Assembly: GCF_014077625.1 (NCBI RefSeq)
Contig: NZ_JACFXU010000014.1
Location: 124,001 to 188,000 of the forward strand
Direction: 5' to 3'
DNA: 64,000 nt
DNA from: Sediminihaliea albiluteola
Lineage (GTDB): Bacteria; Pseudomonadota; Gammaproteobacteria; Pseudomonadales; Halieaceae
Under the pieces are notes generated by a model that worked only from the letters and a program-made list of their open reading frames with translations, ran no database searches and was not told where the DNA came from. Below, piece after piece: positions 48,985 to 64,000 of this stretch. Numbering within the stretch: the stretch's first letter is position 1; each line of letters begins with the position of its first letter. A program made the translations under genes and the position numbers.

Positions 48985-50277
<1,293 letters not shown>

Positions 50278-50517: not shown

Positions 50518-50603
50518 AATCATTCTCTCATTCAGGGGGTACAGACAAGCGTTTAGTCGCACCAAAAAGCGCGCATTTTATGAGATATCAGTCGGGATAG
50601 CGA

Positions 50604-50624
50604 GGCCAGCCGCGTTGGCTGGCC
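50604..50624 (-). other. Hairpin between mlaC and ibaG
   Basis: GGCCAGCC-N5-GGCTGGCC, an 8-bp perfect stem 35 bases after the mlaC stop. No T-run follows, so it is more likely an mRNA processing or stability element, or part of a rho-dependent end. Confidence 0.5.
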
Positions 50625-50658
50625 CGCTCGGGCCACTGAGAGCCGATGTCTAAGCCAC

Positions 50659-51321
50659 TTAGCCCTCGAGTTCGACGGCTGACCAACTTTCGATCACCTT
50701 ATCGAGGTCACCGTCGTATTTACGCGCAGCACTTTCAAATTGGCTGCGATAAATTTCACCCAAATTGACATTCTCAATGATCATATTGCGCAGCTTCCAC
50801 TGCCCCTCACGATCTTTACCCATTTGGTAAAACACCACGTAAGGCTCTGAGCCATCTTTGTAAATCAGCTGTTGCACGGAGGCGCGACGGCTGTTGTCAT
50901 CGGCGGCATCGGGCTCTTTCACTTCAATCCGTGAGCCACCAAAAGCCAGCAAGCCTTTGCTGTAGGTGCGCACCAAACCGCTGCGCATGGTCTCTGTGAA
51001 GCGATCTAACTGTGAGGCCAATTCTGCACGGCCTGCTTCATCTAATGAGCGGTAACGCGAGCTACTGGCATAGGGCCCCATCACACCGCGTGCAAAGCCG
51101 CGAAAATCGACCACTGGGTCGAGCAACTCTTGCACCTTGTCATAATAGCCTTCGGTGTCGGCACCCTGGGCGTTCTGGGCTTCTTCGACCACCTCCATGA
51201 CAGCCTCCGTAGCACTGCGCACCACCTCATGGGCTGTCTTCTGTTCAGCAAAAGCTGCCGTTGATACGAGCAGGCCAACAGCGGCCAACCATGAAAAAAC
51301 TATTCGGGTAACTGGATTCAC
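50659..51321 (-). CDS. mlaC: MlaC-family periplasmic phospholipid shuttle (solitary)
   Basis: 220 residues with a signal peptide ending near Ala25 (STAAFA). The Tgt2/MlaC domain shows YDKVQELLDPVVDFRGFARGV, then RFTETMRSGLVRTYSKGLLAF and WKLRNMIIENVNLGEIYRSQF. MlaC carries phospholipid between MlaA at the outer membrane and MlaFEDB at the inner membrane. GTG start with AGGAG upstream. The usual operon partners mlaF, mlaE, mlaD and mlaB are not present on either side. Confidence 0.92.
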   Translation of the reverse strand: MNPVTRIVFSWLAAVGLLVSTAAFAEQKTAHEVVRSATEAVMEVVEEAQNAQGADTEGYYDKVQELLDPVVDFRGFARGVMGPYASSSRYRSLDEAGRAELASQLDRFTETMRSGLVRTYSKGLLAFGGSRIEVKEPDAADDNSRRASVQQLIYKDGSEPYVVFYQMGKDREGQWKLRNMIIENVNLGEIYRSQFESAARKYDGDLDKVIESWSAVELEG

Positions 51322-51381
51322 TTGCTTTGCTCCTACTACTCTTTTCTGTGAGCTAATGGTCTGTATACTTGCCGCCCGGTT

Positions 51382-51411
51382 TTCACAAGCATGGCCATGC
51401 CATAATGTGAA
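51382..51411. promoter_or_regulatory. Palindrome in the mlaC / yrbG divergent gap
   Basis: The 12-bp perfect palindrome GCATGGCCATGC (51389-51400) sits between TTCACA (51382-51387) and TGTGAA (51406-51411). CATAAT (51401-51406) may be a -10 for yrbG. Possible shared operator; factor unknown. Confidence 0.35.
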
Positions 51412-51503
51412 CGAAACCGCGATACACCAACTATGACAACGTTGGCTCCTCCACAGTTCCCCGAGTTCTGGGCGGCGCCCACTGTAACAGGAAAGCTGTT
51501 TTT

Positions 51504-52469
51504 ATGCTGTTAGCCGCCGCTGCCACTTTGCTCGGTTTTATTATTCTCATCTGGAGCGCCGATCTATTTGTTGCTGGCGCAGCCTCTATTGCCGAAAATA
51601 TGGGCCTGTCGCAAATCATGATCGGCCTGACGATTGTATCAATCGGCACTTCTGCCCCTGAAATTTTGGTGTCAATCACCGCTGCCCTCTCCGGCGTCGG
51701 CGAGTTGGCTATTGGCAATGCCATCGGCTCCAATATCGCCAATATTGGCTTAGTACTGGGGATTACGGTGCTAATTGCGCCCCTGTGCATCAATCGCGCC
51801 ACTATCCGCAAAGAGCTCCCCGTCTTACTGCTAGTGACCTTCGGCTGCGGCGCGCTGCTATTAGATGGAGAACTATCGCGTTTTGACGGCCTTCTCATGC
51901 TGGGCGCACTGGCTGTTGTGCTCTACCTCATGTGGCGTTTTCAAGATCAAGTCAGCGAGCTTCTCGGCGATGAAAACCCCGCTCATTTAAGCCCTCTGCG
52001 TGCCTGGCTGAGTTTCACCGCCGGTCTGCTGTTGCTGGTCGCCAGTTCGCGGCTGCTGGTTTGGGGAGCGAGCGAAATCGCACTCTTTTTAGGTGTTTCA
52101 CAGTTACTGATTGGCCTAACTGTGGTTGCCATCGGCACCTCTCTGCCCGAGCTTGCCGCCACCGTTGCTAGCGCTCTGCGAGGCCACAGCGATATCGCTG
52201 TGGGCAATATCTTAGGCTCCAATCTATTTAACCTGTTGGCGGTGATGGCTATCCCGGGCTTGTTTGAGACAGAGCAGCTCGACAGTCAGCTCCTGCCTCG
52301 CGACTACAGCACCATGACCGCAATGACGCTGTTGTTGGCGCTGGCGCTTTATCTGGGCCGAGGTAGCAAACAAGTGGTCGCGGGACAGAGTTATGTCGGT
52401 CGCTCGGCCGGCATACTGTTCGTAAGTATCTACGCGCTGTATTATTACTGGTTGTACCAAACCCGCTAG
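51504..52469 (+). CDS. yrbG: CaCA-family calcium/sodium antiporter YrbG
   Basis: 321 residues, about ten membrane segments in two inverted halves, each with an alpha repeat: IGTSAPEILVSI with GNAIGSNIANIGL in the first half, and IGTSLPELAATV with GNILGSNLFNLLA in the second. These hold the ion-binding acidic and polar residues of the NCX/CaCA family. It is 10 bases upstream of kdsD as in E. coli. Confidence 0.94.
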   Translation: MLLAAAATLLGFIILIWSADLFVAGAASIAENMGLSQIMIGLTIVSIGTSAPEILVSITAALSGVGELAIGNAIGSNIANIGLVLGITVLIAPLCINRATIRKELPVLLLVTFGCGALLLDGELSRFDGLLMLGALAVVLYLMWRFQDQVSELLGDENPAHLSPLRAWLSFTAGLLLLVASSRLLVWGASEIALFLGVSQLLIGLTVVAIGTSLPELAATVASALRGHSDIAVGNILGSNLFNLLAVMAIPGLFETEQLDSQLLPRDYSTMTAMTLLLALALYLGRGSKQVVAGQSYVGRSAGILFVSIYALYYYWLYQTR

Positions 52470-52479
52470 AGACCCTCCC

Positions 52480-53457
52480 ATGCCCAACGAACCGATGAAG
52501 CCCTTTCGCAATTCGGCCCTGCGCACCATCCGCATGGAAGCCGAGGCGGTCGCTGCGCTTGCTGAGCGCATCACCGACGACTTTGACCGCGCCTGTGAAT
52601 TGCTACTGGCCACTAGCGGCCGAGTCATTGTGACCGGCATGGGTAAATCCGGTCATATCGCGCGCAAAATCGCCGCTACGTTTGCCAGTACCGGCACTCC
52701 CGCACACTTTGTCCACCCCGGCGAGGCCAGCCACGGCGATATGGGTATGATCACAGCGAACGATGCCATCATCGCCTTGTCTAACAGCGGTAACGTACCT
52801 GAGGTCATTACCTTGTTACCCATGTTCAAGCGCTTGGGAGTCCCTTTGATCAGCATGACCGGCAACCCCAACTCGACCTTGGGACTGGCCAGCGACGCCC
52901 ACTTAAATACCGGCGTTGCCACCGAGGCCTGCCCCCTAGATCTCGCGCCAACCTCCAGCACCACCACAGCGCTGGTCATGGGGGATGCTTTAGCCATTGC
53001 GCTCTTAGAAGCCCGTGGCTTTACCGCGGAAGACTTCGCCTTTTCACATCCCGGCGGGACTCTAGGTAAGAAGCTTTTATTAAAAGTGGGCGATGTGATG
53101 CACAGCGGCGAGCGCATTCCTCAGGTGAGCAGTGACACGCCGCTGGCTCAGGCCCTGCTGGAGATCAGCAACAAGGGCCTGGGGATGACGACGGTCATTG
53201 ACCGGGATGGCCAACTGGCCGGCATCTTCACTGACGGTGACTTGCGCCGCGCTATTGATTTACAGGTCGATATCAACCAAACCAAGATCGCCACACTGAT
53301 GACCCGCGGACCCAAAACAGCCAAACCAGGTATGCTGGCCGCTGAGGCACTGCGCATCATGGAAGAAAACAAAATTACCTCACTGGTGGTCATCGATGAC
53401 GGCCGAGTTGTTGGTGTGATACATCTGATGAGCCTGCTACAAGCAGGTATAGCTTAA
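52480..53457 (+). CDS. kdsD: Arabinose-5-phosphate isomerase KdsD
   Basis: 325 residues: SIS domain (about 40-180; VTGMGKSGHIARKIAATFASTG, FVHPGEASHGDMGM, ALSNSGN) and two CBS domains (about 205-325). It converts ribulose-5-phosphate to arabinose-5-phosphate for Kdo, the inner-core LPS sugar. The usual partner kdsC (Kdo-8-P phosphatase) is missing between kdsD and lptC. Confidence 0.96.
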   Translation: MPNEPMKPFRNSALRTIRMEAEAVAALAERITDDFDRACELLLATSGRVIVTGMGKSGHIARKIAATFASTGTPAHFVHPGEASHGDMGMITANDAIIALSNSGNVPEVITLLPMFKRLGVPLISMTGNPNSTLGLASDAHLNTGVATEACPLDLAPTSSTTTALVMGDALAIALLEARGFTAEDFAFSHPGGTLGKKLLLKVGDVMHSGERIPQVSSDTPLAQALLEISNKGLGMTTVIDRDGQLAGIFTDGDLRRAIDLQVDINQTKIATLMTRGPKTAKPGMLAAEALRIMEENKITSLVVIDDGRVVGVIHLMSLLQAGIA

Positions 53458-53472
53458 CGCCGGGCCAAGCTA

Positions 53473-54033
53473 ATGCAAAAAACTGTGTTACAGCTCTTGC
53501 TTGCTATCGCGGCTTTACTCGCTGCCGGCCTCTATTGGACGCCCGGCGCCGACCCCAGCGCCGACCCAGCGGTCATGAAACGCCAGATGGCACTAGCCCA
53601 AACTTATCTTGAGGAGACGCGCAGCTGGGAGTACAGCGACAGCGGCGAGCTGTCACAGATACTGGAAGCCCAGCGAGCGGAGTTTTTTAAACGCCGCAAT
53701 GTGTCGGAGCTAGAGCAACCTCGCTTCTACTCCCACGATGGCAATGACCGCAGCTGGTCTGCCTCTGCCGAATGGGGCCGCTATCGCCACGCCGCTGGCA
53801 TATTGAACCTGCAGGACTCGGTGGTACTACACAACGATCAGACCGGCGGCACACTGGAATCCGCGGCCATGACCCTCAACGTTAACAACAATACCGCCCG
53901 CTCTAAAGTACCCGTCACTATCACTCAGGGTGACAGCAACATACGCGCAGATGGTATGGTAGCCGACCTCAACCGAGAACGAATTGTTATGAGCCCCAAT
54001 GTGGAGAGCATTTATGTCCAAGCGCAGCCCTAA
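53473..54033 (+). CDS. lptC: LPS export protein LptC
   Basis: 186 residues, N-terminal membrane anchor (about 5-20) and a periplasmic beta-jellyroll (YSHDGNDRSWSASAEWGRY ... [25 protein letters not shown]). LptC receives LPS from LptB2FG and passes it to LptA. It overlaps lptA by 20 bases. Confidence 0.93.
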   Translation: MQKTVLQLLLAIAALLAAGLYWTPGADPSADPAVMKRQMALAQTYLEETRSWEYSDSGELSQILEAQRAEFFKRRNVSELEQPRFYSHDGNDRSWSASAEWGRYRHAAGILNLQDSVVLHNDQTGGTLESAAMTLNVNNNTARSKVPVTITQGDSNIRADGMVADLNRERIVMSPNVESIYVQAQP

Positions 54034-60413: not shown

Positions 60414-60936
60414 CGACAACACGCTCAATCACAGTAATAACGACGACGAGGTTCTCAGTAAGAGTGAGATGAAACGGCGCATGAGCGCTTTGCAAGAGCT
60501 CGGTGAAACCCTCGCAGCGCTCAGTGCCAAGCAGCTGGCGACAGTGCCCTTAGATGACGCCCAGCTATTGGAGGCGATTGCTGAAGCACAGAACATTCGC
60601 TCCAATAGCGCCCGCCGACGGCATTTCCAGTACATCGGCAAGCTGATGCGCAATATCGACCCATTGCCCATCCAAGAGGCGCTCGACAAGCTACATAACG
60701 AGCGCGGCAAAAACAGCCAGCGCTTCCAACAAATCGAAGCTCTGCGCGATGAAGTATTAGCTCGAGGTGTAAAAGGTATCGAGCAAGTGCTCACCCAGTG
60801 GCCCAATGCAGACCGTCAGCACTTGCGGCAACTGGTGCTACAACATCAGCGTGAGTTAGCGCGTGGCAAAGCAGCGGCGGCTAGCCGCAAGCTGTTTCGC
60901 TACCTGCGGGAGCTACAGGAAAACAGCGCTCACTGA
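60406..60936 (+). CDS. yjgA: Ribosome-associated protein YjgA / DarP (DUF615)
   Basis: About 176 residues, highly charged and helical. SKSEMKRRMSALQELGETL and RRRHFQYIGKLMRNIDP are DUF615 hallmarks. In E. coli it aids late 50S assembly. ATG 60406 overlaps the mgtE stop by eight bases, suggesting coupling. Its 3' end overlaps the convergent yhdP-like gene by seven bases. Confidence 0.94.
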   Translation: MANDNTLNHSNNDDEVLSKSEMKRRMSALQELGETLAALSAKQLATVPLDDAQLLEAIAEAQNIRSNSARRRHFQYIGKLMRNIDPLPIQEALDKLHNERGKNSQRFQQIEALRDEVLARGVKGIEQVLTQWPNADRQHLRQLVLQHQRELARGKAAAASRKLFRYLRELQENSAH

Positions 60937-63900
60937 GCCTGGCCGGTCTCTGACTCCAGCACTTGCGGTGCTGGTATCTGTTGCTCGGGCTCTGCTGATT
61001 CGCTCTCAAGCGCCGACTCTGCCCGATCCTGCCGCAGCTTATCTTGCTCGCTCCGATCTTGCTCTGCCGGCCCCTGTTCTAACTTATCTTGCTCCTCGCT
61101 CTGCTCACGCTGTTCTTTTTGCTCTTCTGCCCTACCACCGCTGTCAAAGATACGACTCAAGCTCAGTTGTGGCTCATCCCAACTACCCTCTAGTCGATAG
61201 ACCGCACTCGACATGCGGTTCATTTGCTTCTCAAAAACTCTACTCACTACATAAACACCGGCTGCTACTGGCAAACCCGCTGTTAAAGCGGCCACCCAAG
61301 GTAGGTTACTAGCCACTAGCAGCGTGGCCACTAGCTCCCCATCTAGTGTGCGCTCTTTAAGCGGACTCTCGCCACTAAAGAGGAAGTGACTGGCAGCACC
61401 TTCAACAGTTATCGAGGGCACCACAATGGTCCCGTGGCGAAATAGCACCTCCCCCCTGACCCGATCAAAAGGAATGCCCGACTCGAACACTTGGGTCAGA
61501 CTCAGGCGCTGCAGAATTTGGCTCAGGTTGAGGATGCTCACCACCCGCAGGGTGCCTGAGGCACTGGCTGGCGCATCCAAAAAACGACCGCTATCAATCG
61601 CCAAATCCAAGTCGCCATCCACCACCAGCAAGGAAAAGTCCTGGGGCCCACCACTCCACTCAAGGGCCAAATCCATCCGGCCGAGTTCTGTCTCCAAGAT
61701 GCGCTCGTAACCCAACTCATCCAGCACTACACCCAAATCATCAAACTGTAAAGGAGCCACCAGCTTAGTCAGCCCAGCTGCTCCTTGCTGCCACTCCAGC
61801 TCGCCTGGCCTCTCTTTGGCCAGCGTCAGCCCAGCAATTACCCCGGTGATGGTTGCAGCCCGCAAAGTCCCCGCGCTGCTATTGAGCTGAAACTGCAGGT
61901 GCCCCAGTGACCGCCCTCCCTTTAAAAGCTCAGCCACGCTGACACTCAGCTCAGGCAGCTCCACTGCTTCAGCTGCCGACTCCCGGTCTCCAGACAAGCC
62001 ACTGAGACCATCGAGCTCTAGATAATCGAGCACTAAGCTACCGCGGTCTAAGCCCGCCTCGAGCTGTAAGCTACCTTGCAGCCAGTCAGTTTCAGCCGCT
62101 ACTGTCCATTCGCCACTTGGCTCGATGCGCGCGTTAAGCATCACTTGACTGAGCTCCATGCCCTCCACTAGCAGTGTTTCCGCCAGCAAATCATCCACCT
62201 CAAACAGCAAGCCAACATTGTTTGCTTCAGCCGCCACTTCTTTTTTAGCCGGCCACAGGGGCAGCAATAAATCCCGCCAGGCCAGCGGGTCGAGATAAGC
62301 AAGCTGCCCCGACAACTCAAATAAACCAGCACTGGGCAGCGGCGCACGATCTTGCAGGGCGATATGCCCACCACTGAGAGCTCCCTTAGCGCCAACTAAC
62401 AATGTTGCGTGGAGACGCCGCTCTAGCTCGATCTCAAGGCTATAGGGTAGCGCGGTCAAATCTAAGTCCACTTGCAAAGCTAAAGCCTCATCCTTAGCTT
62501 TGCTCAGAGGGGGCGGCAATTTCACTGTCCAACCCTGTAGCTCAGAGGCCAAGCGAAACTGAGCCCTACGACCGGGAATTACCTCCAGTGAGGCAGTGGC
62601 AGGGCTGCTTCCAGAAGCCAAAGATGCCGCCTCTAAACCCAGCCAATGCTGCAGGGGCTGCGCGGGTAATTGGCCCTTAAAATCAATGCGCAAGGAAGAC
62701 GCTAAGCCCTCAGCAAGTGGCTGCGCATCAGGCTTCAGAGAGGGCGAACTGAAGTTGGCGCTTATCGCTTGCTGCCACAGTTGAGCACTCAGGTCCTGAG
62801 AACTGAAGCCGCGCTGGGAGTGGTAGGACACTTCGCCCTGAATATTGTCCAGCTGCAACTTTAAGGGCTGCATATTCAGCTCGCTCTGCTGCAGCGCTAC
62901 TTTGACCGCGACCAGTGGTGCTACATTCTTGTCATTAAGTGCGAGCTCTAAGGCCAGATCGGTCGCTAGCTGCCCCGCTCCCGACCAGTTGTCAAAGACA
63001 TGTCCCGTCATCGCCGCCAGCGGGGAAGATTTCACCAGGCGCAAAGCATCTTCGGTGGAGCCTTGCATAGTGGCAGAGACTGCCAGTTGCATTCCGCTCT
63101 CGGGGCTCATCCAGGCCTCTGCCGAAATATCGCTGAGCTCAGATTGATAAAGTTTTGCGCTGTCAGCCCAAACACTGACATTGCTATCGTCAATCAGTAT
63201 AAGACCTTGCAGATCATCTAGGGCTGGCCAGTCCGAGTGATAACTCAGAGCCGTGTCATTGACGTCAAAAAACAACTGTAGGGTGCGCAACTCATGAGCG
63301 CTTGGTTTTAAGCTGCCGCGCCACAGAAAGGCGCCTTGCTGCACGGCACCTTCACCTAAACTGTCGCGCAGCCAGGCCAGCAACTGTGGGTTGAGCACTG
63401 AGGGCAGATATTTGTGCCGGTAGCCCGCTTCGGAGTCTTGCAAGCCGACCAGCAAATCCATTTCAATGCCGGCATCTGTTTTAGTAAAAGGTACATTCAG
63501 GGCAAACAGCGCCCTAGACATGCCTTCTTCCGCCTGAGCTGAAATTAAGCCGCTGTTTAACTGTAAGCCCTGCTCATCCCAGCTGATATCTATGCTGCCA
63601 GCAAGGTCGTTATATTCCAGCGGGTGATCGTATACGGTGGGGAAATACATCGCGAAGCGCTGGCTATCCAATATGACCTGCCCCTGACCGGGCCGCAGCG
63701 ATACATAGCCCTCGGCTGAGCGGATACCCGGTGCACCGTGCCAAGAAGTGGCATTGAAATCACTGAAATTGGCGCTCAAATGCCAAGCCCGCCCCGGAGC
63801 CTGCACATCATCCAAACTGAACTCCACCCGCCTTAGTTGAGCGCTGGCATCGAGTACTCGCAAAGCATCAGCTAAACCTGTGGGGGTCTTCTCAAAGTCG

Positions 63901-64000
63901 GCCAACAAAGCACTGATTGGCGCCAGCGAAACCTGCTTACCACGCAAGCGCAGCGAATCGCCCCAAACATCTAGCTGCAAACTTGGTACATCGAGCTCGA
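60930..64000 (-). CDS. yhdP: YhdP-like AsmA-family envelope protein (5' end outside window)
   Basis: At least 1022 residues are visible; the frame is open to the right edge. Long runs of alternating beta strands (repeating-beta-groove type) with the conserved C-terminal AsmA-like part: GDLDLAIDSGRFLDAPASASG, VVSILNLSQILQRLSLTQVFESGIPFDRVRGEV and GELVATLLVASNLPWVAALTAGLPVAAGVYVVSRVFEKQM. YhdP, TamB and YdbH move phospholipids to the outer membrane in enterics. After the domain, about 70 residues form a low-complexity Glu/Gln/Asp/Arg-rich tail. tldD, a frequent neighbour, is not in view. Confidence 0.92.
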   Translation of the reverse strand, partial: ELDVPSLQLDVWGDSLRLRGKQVSLAPISALLADFEKTPTGLADALRVLDASAQLRRVEFSLDDVQAPGRAWHLSANFSDFNATSWHGAPGIRSAEGYVSLRPGQGQVILDSQRFAMYFPTVYDHPLEYNDLAGSIDISWDEQGLQLNSGLISAQAEEGMSRALFALNVPFTKTDAGIEMDLLVGLQDSEAGYRHKYLPSVLNPQLLAWLRDSLGEGAVQQGAFLWRGSLKPSAHELRTLQLFFDVNDTALSYHSDWPALDDLQGLILIDDSNVSVWADSAKLYQSELSDISAEAWMSPESGMQLAVSATMQGSTEDALRLVKSSPLAAMTGHVFDNWSGAGQLATDLALELALNDKNVAPLVAVKVALQQSELNMQPLKLQLDNIQGEVSYHSQRGFSSQDLSAQLWQQAISANFSSPSLKPDAQPLAEGLASSLRIDFKGQLPAQPLQHWLGLEAASLASGSSPATASLEVIPGRRAQFRLASELQGWTVKLPPPLSKAKDEALALQVDLDLTALPYSLEIELERRLHATLLVGAKGALSGGHIALQDRAPLPSAGLFELSGQLAYLDPLAWRDLLLPLWPAKKEVAAEANNVGLLFEVDDLLAETLLVEGMELSQVMLNARIEPSGEWTVAAETDWLQGSLQLEAGLDRGSLVLDYLELDGLSGLSGDRESAAEAVELPELSVSVAELLKGGRSLGHLQFQLNSSAGTLRAATITGVIAGLTLAKERPGELEWQQGAAGLTKLVAPLQFDDLGVVLDELGYERILETELGRMDLALEWSGGPQDFSLLVVDGDLDLAIDSGRFLDAPASASGTLRVVSILNLSQILQRLSLTQVFESGIPFDRVRGEVLFRHGTIVVPSITVEGAASHFLFSGESPLKERTLDGELVATLLVASNLPWVAALTAGLPVAAGVYVVSRVFEKQMNRMSSAVYRLEGSWDEPQLSLSRIFDSGGRAEEQKEQREQSEEQDKLEQGPAEQDRSEQDKLRQDRAESALESESAEPEQQIPAPQVLESETGQAQ

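Follow-up and report, generated by a model that had tools for sequence, protein, structure and literature searches.

The direction and the energy source of the Mla pathway have long been debated. A member of the MlaC family, HpnM, is paired with an MMPL/RND transporter, HpnN, in the Hpn system. In E. coli, according to the available excerpts of the articles cited, residues I241, L245 and I248 of the acidic MlaA tail helix are needed to bind MlaC, at a site overlapping that of the MlaD beta6-beta7 loop (PMC10245069), the negative charges of this tail are required for MlaC recruitment (PMC10719372), and a positive groove on MlaC accommodates the MlaD loop (PMC11289387). In the Grasekamp survey, MlaEFD is taken as the ancestral core, to which MlaABC were added later, and no discussion of MlaA and MlaC without MlaEFD was found in the portion of its text available (PMC10665443). 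The accessible part of the account of the Mpc architecture in Brucella abortus describes a bridge of its own, with no MlaC homologue found there (PMC12436622). A search of the literature, from which most subscription papers and preprints are excluded, returned no paper joining MlaA with MMPL; among the papers listed for MlaC, none joins it with MMPL, RND or HpnN, and none of the listed titles or abstracts dealt with this arrangement.

The window, that is the whole stretch of 64,000 nucleotides analysed here (G000:C6:124001-188000), belongs to a genome of 3.30 Mb in 18 contigs, 98.4% complete. The initial annotation had pointed to a solitary mlaC between yrbG and ibaG-murA, and this was borne out by the sequence, the open reading frames and the Pfam matches. 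The gene (50659..51321, minus strand, GTG start) encodes 220 residues, with an N terminus resembling a signal peptide, and belongs to the MlaC family by its match to the Pfam profile PF05494 (5.5e-34, 117.8 bits for a cut-off of 26). Among solved structures, the toluene-tolerance protein 4fcz is the nearest (E 2.3e-24). The protein scored 21.2 bits, below the cut-off of 195, with the NCBIfam MlaC equivalog PRK15117, which is a narrow model. On one side lie ibaG, of the BolA family (50278..~50523, minus strand, Pfam 4.7e-11), and murA (48985..50247, minus strand, EPSP synthase, 2.1e-122). On the other side are yrbG, of the Na/Ca exchanger family (51504..52469, plus strand, Na_Ca_ex, 1.5e-64), and kdsD (52480..53457, plus strand), named from its position and the E. 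coli order, followed by lptC, lptA, lptB and rpoN. These genes flank the ancestral mla slot, which in E. coli contains mlaF-E-D-C-B. Here, 182 bases (51322..51503) separate mlaC from yrbG, at the mlaF-E-D site of canonical relatives, and about 135-141 bases, depending on the ibaG start (50524..50658), separate it from ibaG, at the mlaB site. As had also been claimed, both gaps are too short for mlaB, mlaD, mlaE or mlaF, none of which was found there in the sequence or among its reading frames.

Two other features of the window were recorded. Between kdsD and lptC (53457-53473), kdsC is absent; a gene of kdsC size occupies this spot in E. coli and in most relatives (cluster c15 in the latter). 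The YhdP-like gene reported in the same window is real (60930..63980, minus strand, 1016 residues as called, PF13116 at 7.6e-128), but nothing ties YhdP to MlaC. Its reading frame covers positions 317-1223 of the 1224 of the profile, and the N-terminal part, outside the frame, may be past the window end.

Whole-genome profile searches yielded a single MlaC, MlaA, MCE protein and MlaE each. MlaA, whose presence is expected of a canonical Mla system, matches PF04333 at 4.4e-72 in the genome search; judged by eye, its signal peptide ends without an obvious lipobox cysteine. Downstream of mlaA (L006:9009-11535) are a response regulator with a SpoIIE phosphatase domain and then a STAS gene.

The spread of this arrangement was surveyed in 145 genomes of the order, taken in one even draw that was identical for every search. 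MlaC was found in 136 of them, a count that includes one match below the family cut-off (genome G129), MlaA in 135, MlaE in 80 and any MCE protein in 100. MlaE adjoins mlaC in 58 genomes (57 of these with MlaA) and occurs only away from mlaC in 22, all with MlaA. A further 19 genomes have MlaC, MlaA and an MCE protein without MlaE, 33 have MlaC and MlaA with neither MlaE nor MCE protein, 4 have MlaC alone, and 9 have no MlaC. No MCE-type partner can therefore be general. In total, MlaE is missing from 56 of the 136 genomes with an MlaC match, a warning that a complete Mla system should not be presumed from MlaA or MlaC alone. In the loci around the fetched mlaC genes (L007-L106), the order in relatives is kdsD-yrbG-[mlaFED]-mlaC-[mlaB]-ibaG-murA, and in 24 of the 47 family codes mlaFED and mlaB are gone with mlaC remaining in the ancestral slot. 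Generality in the order, which the initial annotation had named as a finding that would refute its view, thus holds in so far as the arrangement is common, but it is not universal; its frequency adds to what it can tell and does not render it trivial. Six genomes of families f6, f40 and f36 (G005, G039, G076, G105, G072 and G129; 97-100% complete) have no MlaA, MlaE or MMPL and no MlaC above the cut-off, an apparent loss of the whole pathway.

A lead to another partner came from extra copies of mlaC that adjoin both an mlaA and an MMPL gene at three loci (order MlaA-MMPL-MlaC in L058 and L088, MlaC-MlaA-MMPL in L045), and an MMPL gene at a fourth (MMPL-MlaC in L090). MlaA-MMPL pairs were also seen in L163, L177, L184 and L187, where a second mlaA lies directly upstream of a diverged MMPL gene with no mlaC alongside; these are perhaps a further MlaA-MMPL system. 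The idea that the large neighbours of unlinked mlaC genes are all RND transporters was wrong for L016 (GGDEF-EAL), L007 (CarboxypepD_reg-like), L072 (FtsX) and L091 (RNase R).

As a marker, the PF03176 family proved useless, being found in 145 of 145 genomes, and a close homologue was therefore needed as query. We used the transporter of L058, from the MlaA-MMPL-MlaC operon of genome G040, at E<=1e-60, and found an MMPL of about 870 residues in 78 of the 145 genomes; only some six candidates per genome were scored, so that the MMPL may have been overlooked in some genomes counted as lacking it. The genomes with an MlaC match (136) fall into 68 that have no canonical-size MlaE, 66 of which carry the MMPL, and 68 that have one, 8 of which carry it (Fisher p 1e-26, relatedness ignored). 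The 66 are made up of 54 of 56 genomes without MlaE and 12 of 12 with a long MlaE only. The two exceptions, lacking both MMPL and canonical-size MlaE, are G088 and G129, the latter being the genome with the sub-threshold MlaC match. The eight genomes holding both belong to families f20 (three), f3, f4, f32, f46 and f17. Counting only MlaC matches above the cut-off, the MMPL occurs in 4 of 4 genomes with MlaC and no MlaA, and in 0 of 6 lacking both. Four genomes have MlaA and MMPL with MlaC not found, three of which are only 75-87% complete. The initial annotation had offered, as one of two readings, that this MlaC works with another transporter, and the near-perfect complementarity of the MMPL/RND gene with mlaFED favours it.

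In the window genome, the MMPL gene (G000:C6:276252-278870) encodes 872 residues, has the MMPL domain (PF03176, 3.8e-27), and lies about 100 kb from mlaC on the same contig, between mpl and a CxxCxxCC/LON-domain pair; it adjoins neither mlaC nor mlaA. An mpl-type gene (cluster c1) was found in 20 of 44 compared MMPL loci, mostly directly upstream or one to two genes away. For a second sample, named genomes were scanned with the MMPL of the window organism, giving 80 loci from Halieaceae (Parahaliea, Haliea, Halioglobus, Luminiphilus), Zhongshania, Dasania, Oceanicoccus, Microbulbifer, Porticoccaceae, SAR92/HTCC2207, Gilvimarinus and Aestuariicella. The closest named relatives of the MMPL are those of Parahaliea (74-76% identity), and an mpl match lies inside the fetched stretch in 71 of the 80. 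In this sample, which covers MMPL and MlaE, 50 of the 80 genomes were chosen before the result and searched for MlaE: 27 lack it, 20 carry the long form alone (>=376 aa) and 3 carry one of canonical size, with at least 7 of the 50, including one of these 3, repeating the first sample.

A tree was built from murA, hisD, hisG, kdsD and rpoN for the 72 of the 145 genomes having at least two of these five genes in the fetched loci. The mlaFED state changes 7 times on it, 6 of the changes being forced by well-supported branches. Of 6 independent pairs differing in mlaFED, on average 4.3 showed the opposite change in the MMPL, 0 the same change and 1.7 no difference, and the sign test gave a median p of 0.125, short of 0.05. 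Families f18 and f39 switch mlaFED and MMPL together, f17 is mixed, and in f4 and f32 the MMPL occurs with either mlaFED state. By family code, 20 of the 46 with MlaC uniformly have MMPL without canonical MlaFED, 17 are the reverse, and 9 are mixed or other. The tree pairs and the family switches imply that the complementarity is not one event, with few independent events behind it; they are suggestive of phylogenetic independence.

The MMPL itself was examined for a site at which MlaC might dock. The AlphaFold2 model of the Parahaliea mediterranea protein, 76% identical to that of the window genome, has a mean pLDDT of 83 and the two-half RND fold, with MmpL5, MmpL4, MmpL3, NPC1-type proteins and HpnN among its fold matches. 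Residues 517-572, an acidic loop between strand 496-503 and helix 582-597, have a pLDDT under 50 and are predicted disordered, the rest being confident; helices at about 444-463 and 696-730, which we take as transmembrane, flank the loop. In primary MMPLs, this loop of the second periplasmic domain has a median of 52 residues, with 33% D/E, 2% K/R and 10% F/W/Y. Motif statistics were computed on one loop per family (27 families), 36 of 46 MMPLs being counted as primary. The pattern [DE][DE]x[FWYL] occurs 57 times versus 19.7 in shuffles, and hydrophobic-x-[DE][DE]-hydrophobic 19 times versus 4.3 expected. Hydrophobic residues are enriched at spacings of 4 (z 4.2) and 8 (z 3.9) and depleted at 2 (z -4.5), repeats within the loops inflating the motif and spacing z values. 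Among 80 further MMPLs, the acidic-aromatic motif was present in 65 of 65 parsed loops, with a mild bias since one of the six patterns of the scan that gave these proteins lies inside the loop. The secondary MMPLs adjoining only MlaA (L163, L177, L184 and L187) have no acidic loop, which counts against a role of the loop in docking MlaC.

The repeats in the loops include F-x-D-D-F and D-D-P-F. MlaA tails of these genomes end in a similar way, for example with VDDSFSDFGDDEQWEDF in the window genome and VEDDF in canonical family f21, and canonical MlaD loops read like GGEEEFLDDGD. By analogy, we infer that the MMPL loop may be a multivalent bait for MlaC. Acidic, Phe-rich loops of low complexity can mimic docking motifs for other reasons.

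What was observed is gene content, gene order, a phyletic distribution complementary to that of mlaFED, genes that stand side by side in some genomes, and a loop that bears the motif and is predicted to be disordered. On this basis our preferred reading, which we hold to be somewhat probable, is that MlaA and MlaC work with an MMPL/RND transporter that stands in for MlaFEDB. From an ancestral yrbG-mlaFEDCB-ibaG-murA locus, mlaF, mlaE, mlaD and mlaB would have been lost several times in this order, with mlaC kept in place and mlaA kept elsewhere. Judging from its conservation and from the E. coli system, MlaC would still carry phospholipids in the periplasm, together with MlaA at the outer membrane. 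Its inner-membrane partner would most likely be the MMPL/RND protein of about 870 residues, here the one encoded beside mpl, whose loop motifs may draw in MlaC by the same groove to which the C-terminal tail of MlaA and the beta6-beta7 loop of MlaD bind in E. coli. Lipid would then be handed over between the two, and knowledge of the RND family suggests that the energy would come from the proton gradient instead of ATP. The wider proposal has an even chance of being right, in our estimate: a second Mla architecture, in which a proton-driven MMPL/RND transporter replaced the ATP-driven MlaFEDB several times in one order, serving MlaA-MlaC and recruiting MlaC by a repeated short motif like the MlaA tail or the MlaD loop. 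Against the MMPL as partner we counted that it adjoins neither mlaC nor mlaA here, and that eight genomes have it together with a canonical-size MlaE. RND relatives usually export lipids, which counts against a retrograde role.

Among the alternatives, the one that survives best, although we consider it unlikely, is that MlaC has no dedicated energised partner: it would shuttle passively between MlaA and the inner membrane, or rely on YhdP, TamB or a similar AsmA-like protein, the MMPL being coincidental and handling another lipid. The 33 genomes that keep MlaA and MlaC with neither MCE protein nor MlaE would fit such a shuttle, as would the YhdP gene in the window. Against a coincidental MMPL stand its distribution, 66 of 68 genomes without canonical MlaFED versus 8 of 68 others, and its position next to MlaC or MlaA in several genomes.

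It is quite improbable, though a little less so than the readings taken up below, that MlaC hands its lipid, in the window genome and its family, to an Mpc-like MCE complex. The genome's MlaE and MCE protein lie together on contig C5, unlinked to mlaC, in a cluster composed of a MlaE with an N-terminal STAS-like domain (376 aa), an ATPase (284 aa), an MCE protein (322 aa) and a PF03886 lipoprotein (196 aa), of a family that we take to be PqiC-like. MlaE, ATPase, long MCE protein and PqiC-like lipoprotein in one cluster make up the part list of Mpc. This complex is the genome's only MCE/MlaE system, a long MlaE was found in 5 of 5 sampled genomes of family f1, and the 20 of 50 named MMPL-bearing genomes with only a long MlaE also speak for it. 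The 56 genomes with an MlaC match and no MlaE imply that it cannot be a general partner, the long MlaE also occurs in genomes of other families with a complete linked mlaFED, and the Brucella complex is described, in the part of the account available, without MlaC and with its own bridge (PMC12436622).

The other reading of the initial annotation, that the ABC part had moved elsewhere, we regard as very improbable. Relocation does occur, a canonical-size MlaE being found away from mlaC in 10 genomes (e.g. in families f29 and f39), but no MlaE exists in 56 genomes, and no canonical mlaFED, linked or elsewhere, was found in the window genome, 98.4% complete, whose sole MlaE is STAS-fused. The C5 cluster having the Mpc architecture, it is therefore not a moved mlaFEDB, and this lone MlaE/MCE locus speaks against a relocated operon. 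An intact mlaFED(B) with a second mlaC, which had been named as a finding that would contradict a solitary mlaC, did not turn up either, the genome having one MlaC.

That solitary mlaC is a decaying relic, as the loss of four of the five operon genes from the locus might suggest, is hardly credible, since 63 in-place solitary MlaCs (24 families) are open frames and equal 54 canonical ones in conservation (mean column entropy 2.22 versus 2.26 bits, correlation 0.84). The alignment holds 140 of 149 matches, leaving out those under 300 bases and unfetched copies. Compared to E. coli MlaC, the window protein is longer in the helix 3-4 loop, through an insertion of about 12 residues; this does not set solitary MlaCs apart, since 10 of their 24 families (29 of 63 sequences) carry it, as does canonical family f30. 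The published interface positions vary in canonical MlaCs too, and conservation of the groove residues is not clearly higher in solitary ones. Solitary MlaCs are more acidic (median net charge -4 versus +0.5), so that an electrostatic groove is not favoured. The groove residues and the charge thus weigh against the MMPL loop as a bait for MlaC. In L072 (8883-10391, plus strand), an MlaC domain is naturally fused to a family 3 solute-binding domain and adjoins an FtsX-like permease; frames in L079 and L011 belong to the same cluster as this fusion.

To return to the coupling of MlaA-MlaC to an MMPL/RND transporter, a pump that is probably proton-driven may have taken over from the missing ABC pump in the window bacterium and many of its relatives. 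If true, the same MlaC and MlaA working on an RND instead of an ABC transporter would separate the role of MlaA-MlaC from that of MlaFEDB, a natural MlaA-MlaC-RND system would offer a simple test of transport direction, and a widespread MMPL family would receive its first role.

Compared to known systems, the arrangement has partial likenesses to several. The BstABC sterol transporters also combine an MMPL-family RND transporter with periplasmic partners, but in the accessible part of their description BstB is PhnD-like and BstC TRAP-T-like (PMC10942540), which removes BstC as a relative of MlaC, and the MMPL of the window genome scores 24.6 bits for 1400 with BstA. With the Brucella Mpc, the C5 cluster shares MlaE, ATPase, long MCE protein and PqiC-like lipoprotein; Mpc is described without MlaC and with a lipoprotein that is not MlaA-like, whereas here the cluster coexists with unlinked MlaC and MlaA. 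The HpnM-HpnN pair is alike in joining an MlaC-family protein to an MMPL/RND transporter, and HpnN structures are among the fold matches; it differs in that both cut-offs were missed (MlaC, 41 of 160 bits with HpnM; MMPL, 109 of 752 bits with HpnN) and in that MlaA belongs to the pattern here. Finally, the canonical Mla system of E. coli, ttg2 in Pseudomonas, has MlaC and MlaA of the same families and mlaC in the same genomic slot; the window genome differs from it in being without canonical mlaF, mlaE, mlaD and mlaB, with an RND/MMPL transporter bearing an acidic loop as the candidate partner.
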